From positions 10,246-74,245 of the forward strand of contig QCWI01000004.1 of assembly GCA_003149635.1 (NCBI GenBank): a DNA stretch of 64,000 nucleotides. Reading direction: 5' to 3'. The DNA is from Fluviicola sp. XM-24bin1 (GTDB lineage: Bacteria > Bacteroidota > Bacteroidia > Flavobacteriales_D > Crocinitomicaceae). How positions within the stretch are numbered: position 1 is the first letter of the stretch; every line of letters begins with the position of its first letter. A program made the translations under genes and the position numbers. This document shows, in pieces, positions 3,803 through 41,033 of this stretch. A model generated the notes under the pieces. The model ran no database searches. It saw only the letters and a program-made list of their open reading frames with translations, and was not told the origin of the DNA.

Positions 3803-6800
3803 CTAACGAAGCACATTGACGTGTCCTACCACTTCAATTCGTTCGTCATTTATCGTTGTTTTAAAATCAATTTTCCATGTATAAGTTCCGTCTTGAACTG
3901 GACGCCCATCCAAACCGTAGGTAGCATCCCAACCTATAGAGGCATCGTGAGACTCCCATACAACTTCTCCCCAACGGTTGAATACATACAAGTTAAAGTC
4001 GAATGGATCGTAACCTGAACTAAACACTACGTGCCAGTTCTGATTGTAATCATCGTTATCCGGAGTGAACGTATTTGGAACGTAGAAGATCAATTCTTCA
4101 TTGATTGTAATCGCTCTGTACGTACTATCTGGACACCCTAATGGCGAGTACGCTGTCAACCAAACAACATAACCTCCAGCCTCTTCTGATGGGAAGGTAT
4201 GGATTGGATTCTCTTGTGTTGAGTTCGGACTACCGTCTCCAAAGTCCCATGAGTAACTCACAGCACCAGTTGACTGGTTGTTAAACTGAATCTGACTATC
4301 GAATACAGATACTACCGATGACGATGGCGTAAAGGCAGCATTCGGATTGTCTTCGATGTAAATGTAATCCGTGTACGTTACGCTGTTCGAACATCCTGCT
4401 GCCGATACGGTAGTCAATGTCGCGTCGTACAATCCAGCGTTATCGAATGTCACCGTTACTGATCCACATCCATTAGCCGTTTGACCATTACTGAACGTCC
4501 AGAAACAATCAACGAATGTTCCAGGCGTCGTATTTGTGAACGTTACTGACAAGCCTTCACATCCTTGCGTTGTATCTGCAGTGAATGATACAGCCGGTAG
4601 CGGCTCTACCGTCACATCAACACTATCAACATTCATACATCCATTCACATCCGTACCCATTACATAGTAAGTACCTGATGTAGCTGGAATAAATGGCTGT
4701 CCATTTGTAATTGCCGGAGCCCACTGATATGTATTCGCTCCAGTCGCTGTTAAGGTAACTGCATCACCATCACATACCGTAACGTTCTGACCAGAATCTA
4801 CAGTCGGCAATGGATTCACCGTAATAGTGAATTGCTGAGGTGTTCCAATACATCCATTCAATGTCGGTACCACAGAAATAGTTCCTGTGATCGGCGCACC
4901 ACCTCCATTCGTTCCAACGAAGGAAGCAATGTTACCAGTTCCGTTGGCTGCCAATCCAATTCCTGTATTGTCATTCAACCATCCGAAGGTTGCCCCAGCT
5001 AATGAACTATTAAAGTTGATCGCTGCGGTATTCTCTCCTTCACACAATTCCTGATCTGCAACAGGATTCATCGTTGGTGCCGGGTCAATAGTAATTGTAA
5101 ACGTTGTCGGAGTTCCCGTACATCCGTTCAATGAAGGTGTCACGGTAATCGTACCTGAAATCGGTGCACCCGTTGCATTCGTACCTGTGAAGGCAGGAAT
5201 GTTTCCTGATCCGTTCGCACCCAATCCAATTGCTGGGTTGTTGTTTGTCCAATCGAATGTCGTACCCGGCGAAGCTCCTGTGAAGTTCACCGCTGTTGTA
5301 TTCAGTCCGTTACAGATTGTCTGATCTACAACTGGATCCACATTCGGAGAAGGATTCACCGTAATCGTAAAGTTGATTGGCGCTCCCGGACATCCGTTTG
5401 CGGTTGGCGTTACTGTAATTGTTGCAACCACCGGAGTTGTTCCGTTATTCACAGCGTTGAAAGCTGGAATATTACCAGTTCCCGCTGCTACAAGTCCAAT
5501 AGAAGGGTCGTTGTTAATCCAATCGAATGTTGTTCCTGGAGTTGTACTTGTAAATGCAATCAATGAAGTAAGATCACCGTTACATACAGTCTGGTTCGCA
5601 ACCGGATCAACAACTGGTGTCGCATTCACCGTCACCGTTACCATACTAACGATATTCTGAAGACATGCCGAAGCACTTGCATCCTGCACACTTACTAATG
5701 TGTAATCGAAAGTACCTGCTGTTGTAGTCGGAACCGATACCGTGGCTGTAGCCCCAATCGAAGTAACCGTCTGGTTGGCACCACCATTAATCGTATACGC
5801 AAATGTGTACGGCTCTACCCCTTCCGAACCTGTAAAGGTAATTGTCGGTTGAGGATCGTTTTCACAAACTGTTGCCGTTCCTGAGATCGTTGCATTTGGT
5901 AGAGGATCTACGGTAATCGTAAATGTTTCTGCAGTTCCCGTACAACCTGCCGCAGTAGGGACAACGTTGAAGTTTCCTACAATTGGTGCATTTGTTGCGT
6001 TCGTTCCTGTGAAGGCAGCGATGTTACCCGTTCCATTTGCTCCTAATCCAATACCTGTATTAGAGTTCGTCCAATCGAAGGTGGTACCTGCAACCGCTCC
6101 TGTAAAGTTGATTGCTGCTGTATTACTTCCTTCACAGATTACTTGATCTGCAATTGGATCAACCACTGGTGTTGGGTTCACAGTAATCGTAAATATTGTT
6201 GGTGTACCCGGACAACCATTGGCCGTCGGTGTTACCGTGATTGTAGCTGTAACTGCTGCACTACCGTTATTTACCACGTTGAATGCTGCAATGTCTCCAG
6301 ATCCTGCCGCTGCCAATCCGATTCCTGGAGTATCATTTACCCAATCGAATGTTGTACCTGCAACAGCACCTGTGAAGTTTGCGGCATTCGTAAGATCACC
6401 GGCACACAAGGTTTGATCTGCCACTGGATTCACATCTGGAATTGGATGGATAGTTACGTCAACCACATCTGTATTCACACATCCGTTTGCATCTGTTCCT
6501 GTCGCTGTGTAAGTAATCGTTCCAACTCCTGGGAAGAATTGCTGGTTGTTCACCACTCCATTATCCCAAACGATTGTTGATGCTCCTGTTGCATTCAAAG
6601 TAATCCCTGCACCTGCACACTCTATTTGATCCAACCCAGCATCGATCACTGGTAATGGGTTCACAATTAGAGTTACACTTGATGTACTATCACATCCCGT
6701 AGGTAATACGAACGTTTGATCGTAAACTCCTGCCACCGTTTGTGGATTACCATGAATTGTTGCCACATCTCCCTGACAAATTTCTATTGTGGTTGGGAAG

Positions 6801-9800
6801 ACAATTGTTGTGTTTTCGATTACATTCACCGCTGCCGACGTCCCTGAACATCCATTGGCATCTGTAACTGTAACTGTGATTGGGTTATCAGCAATTGTAA
6901 AGTCAGCTGTAGGAGTCGTTGCTCCGTTTGACCATAAGTAACCGTTGTATGCATTCGCAGTACCTAATGTCGCACTGAATCCAGCACAATATTCTAATAC
7001 TCCAGTAATTGTTGGAGTTGGATTTGGGTTCACAGTTACAGTTGCTGTACTCGTCACGTTTTGCAAACAAGTCGAAGCACTTGCATCCTGAACACTTACA
7101 AGGTTGTAGTTAAATGTTCCAGCAGTGGTTGTCGGAACAGAAACAGTTGCCGTGTTACCTACGGAAGTTACTGTTTGGTTAGCACCACCGTTAATATTGT
7201 ATGTAAATGTGTATGGCGCAACTCCATCTGAACCAGTAAATGTAATCGTCGGCTGTGGATCGTTCGCACAAACCGCAGTTGTTCCAGTGATTGTTGCATT
7301 CGGAAGTGGATTTACCGTAATTGCGAATGTTTCAGCTGTACCCGCACATCCCGCAGCAGTTGGAACTACGTTGAAGTTTCCAATGATTGGTGCGTTGGTT
7401 GCGTTTGTTCCGGCAAATGCTGCGATATTTCCAGTTCCATTGGCCCCAATACCAATCCCTGTATTTGAGTTCGTCCAATCGTAGGTTGTTCCAGCTACGG
7501 CACCCGTAAAGTTGATGGCTGCTGTGTTGTCGCCCTCACAGATTTCTTGATCTGCAATAGGATCAACCGTCGGAATTGGATTTACAATGATATCAAATGT
7601 GATTGCTGGCCCCGGACATCCATTAGCCGTCGCGCTTACCGTAATAGTGGCTGTTTGTTGCGTTGTACCTGCATTCATAGTATTGAACGAAGCAATGTTT
7701 CCTGTCCCGTTCGCCGCAAGTCCGATAGATGTATTGTTATTAGCCCAGTCAAATGTTGATCCAGCCGTTGCACTTGTAAAGTTCACAGCAGTTGTTGCAT
7801 CACCCGCACACAAGGTTTGATCTGCAACCGGATCTACCACTGGTAGTGGATTCACCGTTACTGTCACTTGATCATCTGAGATACAACCGTTGGCATCAGT
7901 TCCCGTTACAGTGTAAATAGTCGTCGCAGCTGGCGAAGCATTCACCGTAGCACCAACAGTTGTATTCAATCCTGTTCCCGGTGACCAAGTATAAGTATTT
8001 GCTCCAGTCGCTGTAATGTTTATGTTGTCACCCGCACAAATAGTTTCATCAGGTGCACTTACCACTGGTAACGGGTTCACCGTAACCGGCAGTGTTAAAC
8101 TATCCGGACATGCTCCAGGAGTCAAGTACTGAATGTTATATGTAGTGCCAGCTACCTCGTTGGTGATTTCTCCTGTTGTTGGGTTTACTGATGAACCATC
8201 CGCTGGGTCTGGATTGTAAGAGAATGTACCTCCCGCTGTTCCAGTTACCGTTGCACTGTTCGCATCTCCAAAACAGAAATCTGCCAAAGTAAACGTTGGA
8301 TCATCCAATGGGTTCACAGTCACAGTCACTGTTGCTGTATTCGTACAACCTGTATTGATATCTGTACCAGAAACTGTAAATGTTTCACCGTTCACAGCAC
8401 CATAGACTACAGGGGACTGTAAGCTGTCGTCACTGAAAGTTGCACCTCCAGAGGTAGTCCACAACCACTCTGTTGCTTCTCCTCCAGTTTCGTTCAATGT
8501 GATGCTATCTCCCAAACATACAGGACTATTATCAATGGCTACCACGTTTGGCAACGCGTTGATCTCAACAATGTACGTCTCCGTTCCCCAACAGTTTGCC
8601 GCAGGACTTTGATATGTAATTGTGTATAAACCTGGAGTTGATGCTGACACATCGATCAATCCTGTAACCGGGTTGATCACCATTCCAGCAGGTGCTACTG
8701 AGAACGTACCTCCCGGCACCCCTGTAATTGTTGGAAGTGGATCGGCTGCATCTTGACAGTATTTAGGATCGTAGTTGAAAGTCGCATCTTCCAAACCAAC
8801 GAAAGTTCCAGTTACTGTCACAGGACAACCGTTATCATCAATAATATCAAATGAATAGTTATCTCCATCTACCAATCCATCAATTGTGATTGTACCACCA
8901 TTGGCAGCAGATGTATTCACGAGAGAAGCGGTAGAAGGAACCAATGATCCAGGCACTATGTTAAAGAGTGAACCATCATTTGCTGGAGTACCACCACTTA
9001 CTGTAACGGTAGCCGTTCCTGCAAAACAATCCTCAACTACGTTCGTAACGATCGGTTCAAGGAATGTCACCGGGTATGCCGGCCCGAGGTCATAACACAA
9101 CGTTCCAGTAAAGAAGTACGAGTAAATGTAGTTCACGTAATCGTACAAGGTCAATGGCATGAAGTAATACGTTAGGTTGTTACCATAAATATTACTTACT
9201 CCCCAAGGCCCTGCCGGGTTGTTTGGATCCCAAATCCCTAAGAAACATGGGTCTGTTGTAAAGTCTTGTGGTGAGAATACCGTTGGCGCACAATCGTAAA
9301 TTAACAAGTGCATTCCTGGATTGTAAGTACCTCCAGTTGGGTTACCGATATCCGCTGGTGGAATGAAATCACCGTTTGGTGTAATCGTCAAGGAATCACC
9401 AAAACATAGGTCGAATGGCCCTGTTGAAGTTGTGTTACCAGTAACACTCGTCGTGAATGTACCTGCGTCCACTGGACAGTTACAATCCGCTGGGTGGTTA
9501 AATGGAAGTGATGTAATTGTACACGCTGGATCTGCAGAGAATGTTGCAGTCACTGTACAGTTCGTTGTTCCGTTTGGAGTGATTCCAGTAATTGCCCAGT
9601 TCAATGGACTTGTAAATGGTGCGTTGTACGTTACACTGTTTCCGTTACAGTCTGTAAGTGTAAGTGTTCCCGTAGAAGGCGGGCTCGTAAATTCAAGCGT
9701 ACCTGTAATGTCAAATGTATTGGTAACTGTGTTACATGGTTCTTGGTTCAATGACATGAACGTAAAGAAACAGTTACAAATTGGTGCTGTATAAGTCAAG

Positions 9801-10582
9801 TTCGAAATGGAACACGTTGGATCAGCGGTGAAGTAGGCACTTACGTCACATGGCTGACCATCAGCCGTCAAACCTCCGAAAAGGTACGTTTCAGAACCTT
9901 GTCCTTGAGCATTTATCGTAAATGGCGCACTTGCAACAACATGGATGTTTCCGTTACAATCTTCTACAACAAGGTTTCCAGTTGTTGGCGGGTCTTCGAA
10001 ATCGATCTGTCCAGTAATTTCGTAAGTATCTGTTGTTGGATCACAAGCACTGATGTTCGCCTCGAAGTACGACATGAAACACGGTGGATTTGCCACAACG
10101 GAACAATCGGTTGCTCCTGTACCACCTGTCTGCGTCAAACTTACGTTTTGAACCGTGTTTGCATAGTTCGTAATCAACATAATATACACCTCACCTACCT
10201 GAGCATTCGGAATTGAAGGCGTTTCGTTTGCTGTAGCCGAATAACTACAGTCAACGATATCACCTGCGTCCAATGTACCACAATCTCCTTGCGCTGCAGC
10301 AAGGTTTGGATACGGGCCGTAGATAATGAAGTCAATATCTGAAGGCGCTGTCAAACTCATGTCGATTGCACCTGCATTGGAGATTTCAAAGTAGTACCAA
10401 CTTGGGTTAGGTTGAGTGGCCAAACAACCGTAATCGTTACCGACTTCGGCAGTTGTACCAGTGTTTGCTGTAAAGGATGCACCTTGATCTGTACAAATCG
10501 GGTCCATGTCCGCACAGTTAACACCTTGAGCTGCACCTACAAATGGAACAGCAAGGAGGAGAAAGAGTAGTAAGTTTTTCAT
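3803..10582 (-). CDS. Giant T9SS-exported adhesin with Ig-like repeats, PKD domain and gliding-associated C-terminal (type B) sorting domain
   Basis: 2259 residues. A signal peptide (MKNLLLFLLLAVPFVGAAQG) is followed by an N-terminal globular part (about 20-160), several divergent modules to about 800, then a long array of Ig-like modules. These are joined by linkers of the form TVNPLPVVDPVADQTLC and carry the recurring core F-D-W-x-N-x-x-x-x-I-G-L. A PKD-like pair lies near 1990-2150 (VSYSWDFGDGSP). The last about 90 residues (FYVPNTFTPDNDDYNQNW, then NRWGEVVWES, then DGTYTWKI) are the CHU_C / T9SS type B sorting domain. The protein should therefore cross the outer membrane by T9SS and be surface-attached. 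It lies 12 bp downstream of a small exported protein gene in the same direction, and a terminator follows. Family knowledge suggests adhesion or gliding; the ligand is unknown. Confidence 0.9.
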   Translation of the reverse strand: MKNLLLFLLLAVPFVGAAQGVNCADMDPICTDQGASFTANTGTTAEVGNDYGCLATQPNPSWYYFEISNAGAIDMSLTAPSDIDFIIYGPYPNLAAAQGDCGTLDAGDIVDCSYSATANETPSIPNAQVGEVYIMLITNYANTVQNVSLTQTGGTGATDCSVVANPPCFMSYFEANISACDPTTDTYEITGQIDFEDPPTTGNLVVEDCNGNIHVVASAPFTINAQGQGSETYLFGGLTADGQPCDVSAYFTADPTCSISNLTYTAPICNCFFTFMSLNQEPCNTVTNTFDITGTLEFTSPPSTGTLTLTDCNGNSVTYNAPFTSPLNWAITGITPNGTTNCTVTATFSADPACTITSLPFNHPADCNCPVDAGTFTTSVTGNTTSTGPFDLCFGDSLTITPNGDFIPPADIGNPTGGTYNPGMHLLIYDCAPTVFSPQDFTTDPCFLGIWDPNNPAGPWGVSNIYGNNLTYYFMPLTLYDYVNYIYSYFFTGTLCYDLGPAYPVTFLEPIVTNVVEDCFAGTATVTVSGGTPANDGSLFNIVPGSLVPSTASLVNTSAANGGTITIDGLVDGDNYSFDIIDDNGCPVTVTGTFVGLEDATFNYDPKYCQDAADPLPTITGVPGGTFSVAPAGMVINPVTGLIDVSASTPGLYTITYQSPAANCWGTETYIVEINALPNVVAIDNSPVCLGDSITLNETGGEATEWLWTTSGGATFSDDSLQSPVVYGAVNGETFTVSGTDINTGCTNTATVTVTVNPLDDPTFTLADFCFGDANSATVTGTAGGTFSYNPDPADGSSVNPTTGEITNEVAGTTYNIQYLTPGACPDSLTLPVTVNPLPVVSAPDETICAGDNINITATGANTYTWSPGTGLNTTVGATVNASPAATTIYTVTGTDANGCISDDQVTVTVNPLPVVDPVADQTLCAGDATTAVNFTSATAGSTFDWANNNTSIGLAANGTGNIASFNTMNAGTTQQTATITVSATANGCPGPAITFDIIVNPIPTVDPIADQEICEGDNTAAINFTGAVAGTTYDWTNSNTGIGIGANGTGNIAAFAGTNATNAPIIGNFNVVPTAAGCAGTAETFAITVNPLPNATITGTTAVCANDPQPTITFTGSDGVAPYTFTYNINGGANQTVTSVGNTATVSVPTTTAGTFNYNLVSVQDASASTCLQNVTSTATVTVNPNPTPTITGVLEYCAGFSATLGTANAYNGYLWSNGATTPTADFTIADNPITVTVTDANGCSGTSAAVNVIENTTIVFPTTIEICQGDVATIHGNPQTVAGVYDQTFVLPTGCDSTSSVTLIVNPLPVIDAGLDQIECAGAGITLNATGASTIVWDNGVVNNQQFFPGVGTITYTATGTDANGCVNTDVVDVTIHPIPDVNPVADQTLCAGDLTNAANFTGAVAGTTFDWVNDTPGIGLAAAGSGDIAAFNVVNNGSAAVTATITVTPTANGCPGTPTIFTITVNPTPVVDPIADQVICEGSNTAAINFTGAVAGTTFDWTNSNTGIGLGANGTGNIAAFTGTNATNAPIVGNFNVVPTAAGCTGTAETFTITVDPLPNATISGTATVCENDPQPTITFTGSEGVEPYTFAYTINGGANQTVTSIGATATVSVPTTTAGTFDYTLVSVQDASASACLQNIVSMVTVTVNATPVVDPVANQTVCNGDLTSLIAFTSTTPGTTFDWINNDPSIGLVAAGTGNIPAFNAVNNGTTPVVATITVTPTANGCPGAPINFTITVNPSPNVDPVVDQTICNGLNTTAVNFTGASPGTTFDWTNNNPAIGLGANGSGNIPAFTGTNATGAPISGTITVTPSLNGCTGTPTTFTITIDPAPTMNPVADQELCEGENTAAINFNSSLAGATFGWLNDNTGIGLAANGTGNIASFVGTNGGGAPITGTISVVPTLNGCIGTPQQFTITVNPLPTVDSGQNVTVCDGDAVTLTATGANTYQWAPAITNGQPFIPATSGTYYVMGTDVNGCMNVDSVDVTVEPLPAVSFTADTTQGCEGLSVTFTNTTPGTFVDCFWTFSNGQTANGCGSVTVTFDNAGLYDATLTTVSAAGCSNSVTYTDYIYIEDNPNAAFTPSSSVVSVFDSQIQFNNQSTGAVSYSWDFGDGSPNSTQENPIHTFPSEEAGGYVVWLTAYSPLGCPDSTYRAITINEELIFYVPNTFTPDNDDYNQNWHVVFSSGYDPFDFNLYVFNRWGEVVWESHDASIGWDATYGLDGRPVQDGTYTWKIDFKTTINDERIEVVGHVNVLR
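5590..7860 (-). repeat. Internal duplication of a multi-domain block in the giant adhesin
   Basis: Two blocks of about 270 codons, roughly 7000-7860 and 5590-6450, encode nearly the same order of modules (DQTLCAGD, DQEICEG/DQVICEG, NATITGT/NATISGT, ACLQN). They are spaced by 1404 bp (468 codons), measured at the shared DNA word coding ASACLQ at 7075 and 5671. This points to a segmental duplication of several Ig modules together, in addition to single-module repetition. Confidence 0.7.
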
Positions 10583-38846: not shown

Positions 38847-40445
38847 TTACTTGTCGTCTCCTTCTTCAGATGATGGTTCGTCATCTACTTCTTCGGCGTC
38901 TTGAACGCTATCAGTGGTGTTTCTCAACACAGTTCCCTGTCCAGTAAAATCTTTTCCTTTCAAATATTCAGGCAGATTCAATCCAGCCATGTTGAACATT
39001 TCCTGCAATGGTGGAACGGATCCATACAATCCAGAAATGAAGTCAGCCGTTGATGATTTCCCAGAGGCTCCTTTACCAGAATCCCAAACAGTAACTTTAT
39101 CGATTTTGATATTCTTGATTGCTTCAGCTTGTAATTTCACAAGATCTGGCAATTTGTCTGCGATCATAATCTTCACGGCATCTTCGGAGTTTCCGGCTGC
39201 TTCCACCAACTGACGGAAACCGTCTGCTTGCTTGCTCAAGACCTCGTAGATACCGCGCGCTTCTGCATCCATTTTTGCAAAGATGGCATCGGCCTCCCCT
39301 TTTGCTCTTCGACGTAACATTTCTGCTTCTGCTTCCACATCAATCTCCACACGTTTCTTCGCAATTTCCGCCGGTACGATAATATTGGCTTCTTGTGTAG
39401 CCTGATCTCTTTGCGCACGCACCGTCTCTGCTTCTTTCTCCGCTGTATAAGATTCCTCAAGGGCTTTCGCCTGCTTCACTTTCTCCGCTGCAATAGCCAC
39501 ACGATTCGCTTCTGCCTCTGCTTCACGACGTTTCGCCTCTGAGTTCGCGATCGTAATACGAGATTCGTTCTCCCCTTCTACCGCAATCGCGTTGGCATCG
39601 ACTACTTTGATACGTTTCATTTTATCCGCTTCGGCCTCCCCAGCTTGTGCGGATGTATTTGCATCTGCCGTTTTAATGCGTTCATCACGATCCGCATTCG
39701 CCTCACCAATCTTCGCTTGTGCATTCAACGCTGCAACTTTCGTACGCTCGTCTTGATTTGCGTCTGCCTCACCAATGGAACCGTCACGATTCTTCTCTGC
39801 TACACTTTGACGTGCATCATTGATTGCTTTCGCTGCTGCTTCCTTACCAAGAGCCTCAATGTACCCCGACTCGTCTTTGATATCGGTAACGTTCACGTTG
39901 ATCAGCTTCAAACCGATTTTCTTCATTTCGGCTTCCACATTTGAGGATACATTCGCCAAGAACTTATCACGGTTCGAGTTAATTTCTTCAATATCCATGG
40001 TCGCTACTACCAAACGCAACTGACCAAAAATGATGTCTTTGGCCAAATCGTGAATCTGCTGCTTCGTAAGTCCTAAAAGACGTTCCGCTGCATTTGACAT
40101 TCCTCCGGGCTCCGTAGTAATACCTACGGTAAAGCTTGAAGGCACATCCACACGAATGTTCTGCTTGAAAAGTGCGTTGGTCAACTTTACCTCAATGGAA
40201 ATAGGCTTGAAGTCTAGATACTCGTAATCCTGAAAAATAGGCCAGATGAACGCTGCACCACCATGAATACATTTGGCGGTTCTGTTACCATCGGCTCCTT
40301 TACCTACGCGTCCGTAAACAACGAGAATTTGATCCGAAGGACAACGCTTGTAACGTCGGAAAATCCCGACCAGTAGTATGATTAAAAATAAGACGCCCGC
40401 TACTTAGGCGACCAGGAAATACGAAATTCCGCTTTCTTCTCCCAT
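38847..40445 (-). pseudogene. Flotillin-family (SPFH) protein, reading frame interrupted by TAA at codon 14
   Basis: From ATG 40445 the frame reads MGEESGISYFLVA, then a TAA (40404-40406), then VAGVLFLIILLVGIFRRYK and an intact flotillin to 38847 (533 codons with both stops). Domains: an N-terminal membrane segment broken by the stop; SPFH about codons 40-210 (CPSDQILVVYGRVG, CIHGGAAFIWP); and the long EA-rich heptad region about 210-420. The C-terminus is acidic. It resembles YuaG/FloT, which scaffolds membrane microdomains and pairs with an NfeD protein, as here (15 bp upstream). Between the stop and codon 88 there is no in-frame ATG, GTG or TTG, so reinitiation would lose the membrane anchor. 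Everything after the stop is well conserved, so the lesion is recent, an assembly error, or recoded. Confidence 0.85.
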
Positions 40446-40460
40446 TTTAAAGTGATTTGG

Positions 40461-41033
40461 TTATGATAATTTACTTGTTACTAATAGAATGGTGTCGTCC
40501 ACCACTTTTTCCACTTGGACGATGGTGCCTTGTGATAAATCTTTGTCATCGTTGGTAAATGCTTGGATTTCGTGCAATGATCCTTGAATATTGATCTGCA
40601 CTTTTCCGAATCCTCCGTTATTTGCTTTAATAGGAAGATATACCTCTCCAGTGTGCCCGATAGCATTGCTCATTTTCATGGTACCTTCTTCTACCATTCC
40701 TGCTAGGAGGTAAAATAGGGTCGCCATTAACGTCATCATGATCAATCCACAAAACACGGAAATCCCGATAGTGGCCATCATGGAGAAATCTGATTGAATA
40801 CAACCGATCCCCGTCCATCCGAAAATGGTCAAGAAACCAACAAGGTTTTTGAAGGTGAAAAATTGGAATCCAGCACTGCCATCAATAGCTCCGTCACCAT
40901 CCATATCAACATCACTATCCACTTCACCTCCAAGGAAGGTTAAAATCAATAGAACAACGAGGATAACAGATCCGAGAACTGCTAAAATTCAATACGTTTG
41001 TTCGAAGAAATCAAGTTCTGTAAACCAGGTCAT
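40461..41033 (-). pseudogene. NfeD-like membrane protein, reading frame interrupted by TGA at codon 15
   Basis: From ATG 41033 the frame reads MTWFTELDFFEQTY, then TGA (40989-40991), then ILAVLGSVILVVLLILTFLG and continues intact to the stop at 40461 (191 codons). Homologues I remember have Trp in the stop position (Y-W-I-x-A), so TGG to TGA is the likely change. After the stop come three or four membrane helices (to about codon 105) and a C-terminal OB-fold domain (GHTGEVYLPI, GTIVQVEKV). NfeD proteins of this kind (YuaF type) act with flotillins, and the flotillin gene follows 15 bp later. Reinitiation at ATG 40949 would remove the first helix. Confidence 0.8.

Follow-up and report, generated by a model that had tools for sequence, protein, structure and literature searches.

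Comparison of the genome under study (G000, Fluviicola sp. XM-24bin1) with its relatives indicates that an adjacent nfeD-like gene and flotillin gene, each interrupted by one early stop, are probably a recently inactivated (pseudogenised), dispensable operon. The window analyzed here is a 64,000-nucleotide stretch that corresponds to positions 10246-74245 of contig C4 in a 3.63-Mb, 19-contig assembly with a completeness of 99.86.

Locus Organization and the Two Early Stops

Translation confirmed a first-pass annotation of this DNA, which had reported exactly one stop in each gene, a TGA at nfeD codon 15 and a TAA at flotillin codon 14, separated by 585 bases, in frames that are otherwise open to the end (Table 1). 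Whole-genome searches also returned one stop per gene, and neither a frameshift nor a second stop was found in nfeD or flotillin of G000. The short intergenic gap, together with the same gene order and adjacency in relatives, is consistent with a predicted single operon.

Table 1. Features of the nfeD–flotillin locus, in positions of the window.
Feature	Position	Strand	Observation	Basis
nfeD-like gene (NfeD2/YuaF type)	40461..41033	minus	one early stop	translation, relatives, fold comparison
TGA stop, nfeD codon 15	40989..40991	minus		frame reading, alignment with relatives
Intergenic gap, nfeD then flotillin	40446..40460	minus	15 bases	coordinates
Flotillin (SPFH/Band 7) gene	38847..40445	minus	one early stop	translation, relatives, Pfam/PDB matches
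TAA stop, flotillin codon 14	40404..40406	minus		frame reading, alignment with relatives

Wrongly chosen start sites were rejected as the source of the stops, given that G025 and G018, the closest relatives, conserve the N-terminal pieces ahead of them. The first in-frame ATG, GTG, or TTG after the stop is a TTG in both genes, at codon 29 of nfeD and codon 88 of flotillin. Both stops had been described as lying just ahead of or within the first membrane helix; for nfeD only the latter holds, as the first predicted helix spans residues 9-33 in a model of the G025 protein and the codon 15 stop falls inside it, not ahead of it.

Identity of the Two Proteins

The nfeD gene of G000 is 89% identical to the intact G025 gene (locus L003), and the protein of the same genome (locus L033) was modeled with moderate confidence (mean pLDDT 76.6, pTM 0.49). 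The five best structural matches of this model span Z 8.4-11.3; they include 2k14 (B. subtilis YuaF, Z 9.8), 2exd (an nfeD homolog from P. horikoshii, Z 8.4), and 3wwv (a stomatin operon partner, Z 11.0). The sixth match, at Z 7.1, is to the YbbJ chain of the E. coli QmcA-YbbJ complex and could be no more than a common arrangement. In the model and its structural matches, a C-terminal OB-fold domain follows the membrane helices, as in proteins of the NfeD2 type. Fold comparison outperformed the sequence profile for this protein: 6 of the 17 members had a PF01957 hit with E no higher than 0.1, the first member under the cut-off, which leaves the Pfam assignment weak, and a sequence search of the PDB with the nfeD profile found no relative, returning only two alpha-catenin chains (E 0.2 and 0.31).

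The flotillin of G000, 92% identical to the intact G025 gene, has the marks of a bacterial flotillin (SPFH2), namely an SPFH/Band 7 domain, a flotillin-type C-terminal part, and an adjoining NfeD gene. The part after the stop matches Pfam Band_7 above the cut-off (E 8.6e-20), and flotillin-1 (E 1.5e-25) and flotillin-2 in the PDB match the G025 protein over most of its length. The NCBIfam FloT model matches at E 1.6e-57 and 195.7 bits, yet under its curated cut-off of 700. The best matches in named genomes include “bacterium isolate bin.55”, at 94% over flotillin, as well as entries from uncultured Crocinitomicaceae, Flavobacteriales, and Fluviicola. A second flotillin was not found in G000 at E 0.001.

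The Pair in Related Genomes

Within a same-genus set of 34 genomes, G000 included, both genes are full-length in 12, and the stops occur in G000 and in none of the other 11. Neither gene was found in 20 of the 34 at the thresholds used, several of these genomes being incomplete drafts, and the remaining two (G003 and G017) hold remnants of the pair. In G003 (locus L020, contig C457), the first ~40 nfeD codons run in frame into the last ~145 flotillin codons, which would reflect either a deletion spanning the pair or a chimeric assembly. In G017 (locus L021, contig C68), flotillin is reduced to its C-terminal ~100 residues, behind another open frame. Assembly error may lie behind the remnants in both genomes. 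Since 20 of the 34 genomes show neither gene and two more retain only remnants, this distribution suggests that the pair is dispensable in the genus.

Across 98 nfeD and 100 flotillin loci, no stop was seen in the parts that align; the 100-locus set includes five duplicate pairs and leaves out nine loci with distant SPFH matches (L023-L031). The site of nfeD codon 15 is occupied by tryptophan in 97 of the 98 aligned loci and by alanine in one. All 75 loci that align at flotillin codon 14 (out of 100 given) carry a sense codon there, and the encoded residue is mostly hydrophobic. The disabling changes, seen in the one assembly of this species that was found, are thus absent from the orthologues examined, as is typical of pseudogenes; a search for a second genome of the same species, in a collection that may omit records of this genome or of very near ones, found none.

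Selection After the Stops

Three flotillin replacements unique to G000 (L79F, S93F, and A370V) fall in columns with the same residue in 92, 92, and 91 relatives, respectively. Flotillin carries 20 private changes in G000, compared with 6 in G025 and 10 in G018, and the share of changes at conserved sites (3/20 in G000 vs. 1/16 in G025 and G018 together) does not differ significantly (Fisher p 0.39). In 17 of 92 relatives, conserved flotillin columns show at least as many departures as in G000, and no change private to G000 was found at the conserved columns of nfeD.

A comparison of dN/dS downstream of the stops had also been proposed. The share of the dN tree that falls to G000 is 0.39 and 0.40 for the two genes, which rank 77 and 80 among 102 genes, in the normal range; with a median dS of ~1.6, near saturation, dN/dS cannot date the stops. 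If the operon is decaying, the decay must be recent, because there is no frameshift or second stop, the dN share is not clearly raised, and changes at conserved sites are not significantly in excess.

Interrupted Genes Elsewhere in the Assembly

The local contrast was assessed by comparing 528,714 bases of G000 with 284 open frames of G025, defined as those with a match in G000 and including a few shadow frames, and with 114 of G018. An automatic flag for internal stops overcounts; true interruptions were chosen by eye, in a non-blind inspection. Among the 51 matching G025 frames in the window, only nfeD and flotillin are interrupted, and the two stops are therefore unlikely to be independent: as the first-pass annotation had argued, they stand out locally and strike functional partners. 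Its statement that no other gene in the 64 kb is interrupted held for these 51 frames but does not carry over to the whole assembly. The G000 genes judged truly interrupted among the compared frames are nfeD, flotillin, and a methyltransferase-like gene outside the window (C4 ~258360-258913; named by appearance, with no family search behind the label), in which an internal deletion and a frame change relative to G025 amount to more severe damage than the single stops. Among the 284 matched frames, inspection by eye found no further gene with a single stop and one gene broken otherwise. The only single-stop genes found in ~285 frames are adjacent partners, for which independent chance is hard to credit. 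Single-stop genes do occur in relatives too: in the reverse comparison, a 444-residue frame of G018 (C16 ~44522) has a single in-frame TAA at residue 157 and is otherwise open.

The strongest alternative is that base errors in sequencing or assembly, or a minority variant called as consensus, created stops at two sites 585 bases apart. Such errors would leave exactly one disabling change in each of two otherwise conserved genes, as observed, and the species is represented by a single assembly. We nonetheless consider this explanation unlikely, as errors are not expected to favor two partners of one operon and the scan of the 284 frames returned no other single-stop gene; the three unusual flotillin replacements also speak against it, though errors are possible there too.

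Several other candidate stops were dismissed during inspection. Those at C4 46691, 47230, 47637/47643, 90173, 212122, and 230466 were placed upstream of the genuine start; at 230466 the stop is directly followed by an ATG, even though the 15 residues ahead of the stop share 73% identity with G025. The same judgment was reached for C4 128642 and 215469, both common to G018, and for C1 38969 and 55159, the latter followed by a TTG start conserved in G025. Stops at C4 ~1900-2950 and 132634 were assigned to shadow frames of longer antisense frames (5340 and 987 bases, respectively), as were, with a weaker case, those at C1 72570-72828 and C4 86646, where the opposite-strand frame is longer or equally long. 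A stop at C4 161896 lies at the very C-terminus. Contig C4 also contains runs of N at 6610-7260, at 9642-10245 (ending right at the start of the window), and at three places between 98871 and 106499, which are possibly scaffold gaps.

Matching Codon Depth of the Stops

With stops placed uniformly over the sites that one step can turn into nonsense, p is 0.006 for the two landing no more than one codon apart and 0.008 for both landing within codon 20; these probabilities (about 0.6-0.8%) were computed after seeing the data. Such early positions might be read as adaptive loss, in nature or in culture, with stops before or in the first helix preventing insertion of a costly membrane protein, and the absence or truncation of the pair in other members of the genus would fit such a benefit. 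Given that the probabilities are post hoc, and that any early nonsense change would serve while matching positions are not specifically predicted, we regard adaptive loss as improbable. The near-equal codon position has no explanation beyond chance, there being no mechanism that specifically predicts equal depth; decay of one partner that releases the other accounts for the pairing and not for the matching position.

Recoding and Related Readings

A shared recoding that tunes membrane insertion, raised in the first-pass annotation, would have both stops bypassed by programmed readthrough. The conserved downstream frames and the normal-range dN shares are what it would predict, but it is not supported otherwise. 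In-frame stops of recoded genes should be conserved among relatives, whereas none of the relatives examined showed a stop at one or the other site. The two codons differ (TGA vs. TAA), and both are ordinary terminators, with TAA, TGA, and TAG ending 122, 46, and 42 of 210 orthologous genes. RNA structure around the stops is no better than that of shuffles (z -0.29 and 0.37), and no stop-codon anticodon, and hence no suppressor tRNA, was seen among the tRNAs at 30 of 31 tRNA matches, a possibly incomplete set for which 150 of 232 candidates were scored. We thus hold recoding to be highly improbable.

A paired off switch seems just as far-fetched: early nonsense in both partners, set at equal depth where translation reaches the first membrane helix, would be kept in some cells and weakly bypassed or reverted, confining microdomains to part of the population. 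An altered genetic code was also rejected, since TAA, TGA, and TAG each terminate orthologous genes.

Probable Recent Decay of a Dispensable Operon

With stops confined to G000, a pair often missing in the genus, and intact neighboring genes, the phased loss of function that the first-pass annotation had listed among its possibilities is the best-fitting reading. For this recent operon decay, we infer an order of events, a loss of product, and a tolerance of that loss. One partner would have gained its nonsense change first, upon which the other would have lost its selective value and gained its own. Our guess is that nfeD came first, because it is the upstream gene, in which an early stop would additionally lower flotillin expression via polarity. 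The products would end as peptides of 14 (nfeD) and 13 (flotillin) residues, and no membrane microdomain pair would form in this strain. The double inactivation is most likely an ordinary event.

If real, the locus would represent a natural double inactivation of the flotillin system, caught as an early snapshot of operon decay, and would suggest that this bacterium can live without that system. It adds little beyond known gene loss; its main practical value is as a warning for annotation, where an automated pipeline might list NfeD and flotillin here as truncated proteins.

PMC3218036 describes decayed genes that concentrate in certain operons in Shigella. The likeness to those decayed operons is the joint inactivation of two genes from one functional unit; here, in contrast, a single pair in a member of the Bacteroidota is affected, with one nonsense change per gene and little further decay. 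A literature search on flotillin pseudogenes in bacterial genomes matched only a legume symbiosome review.

Among known systems, the locus resembles operons of the NfeD2-SPFH2 kind (YuaF-YuaG/FloT of Bacillus subtilis, YqiJ-YqiK), in which, according to PMC2636767, an NfeD-like gene lies directly beside flotillin and, according to PMC4928834, NfeD2 and FloT are co-transcribed and jointly assembled. The likeness lies in the NfeD-flotillin adjacency, the OB-fold NfeD domain, and the SPFH domain; unlike in those operons, both genes are interrupted in G000, with intact copies in its relatives.
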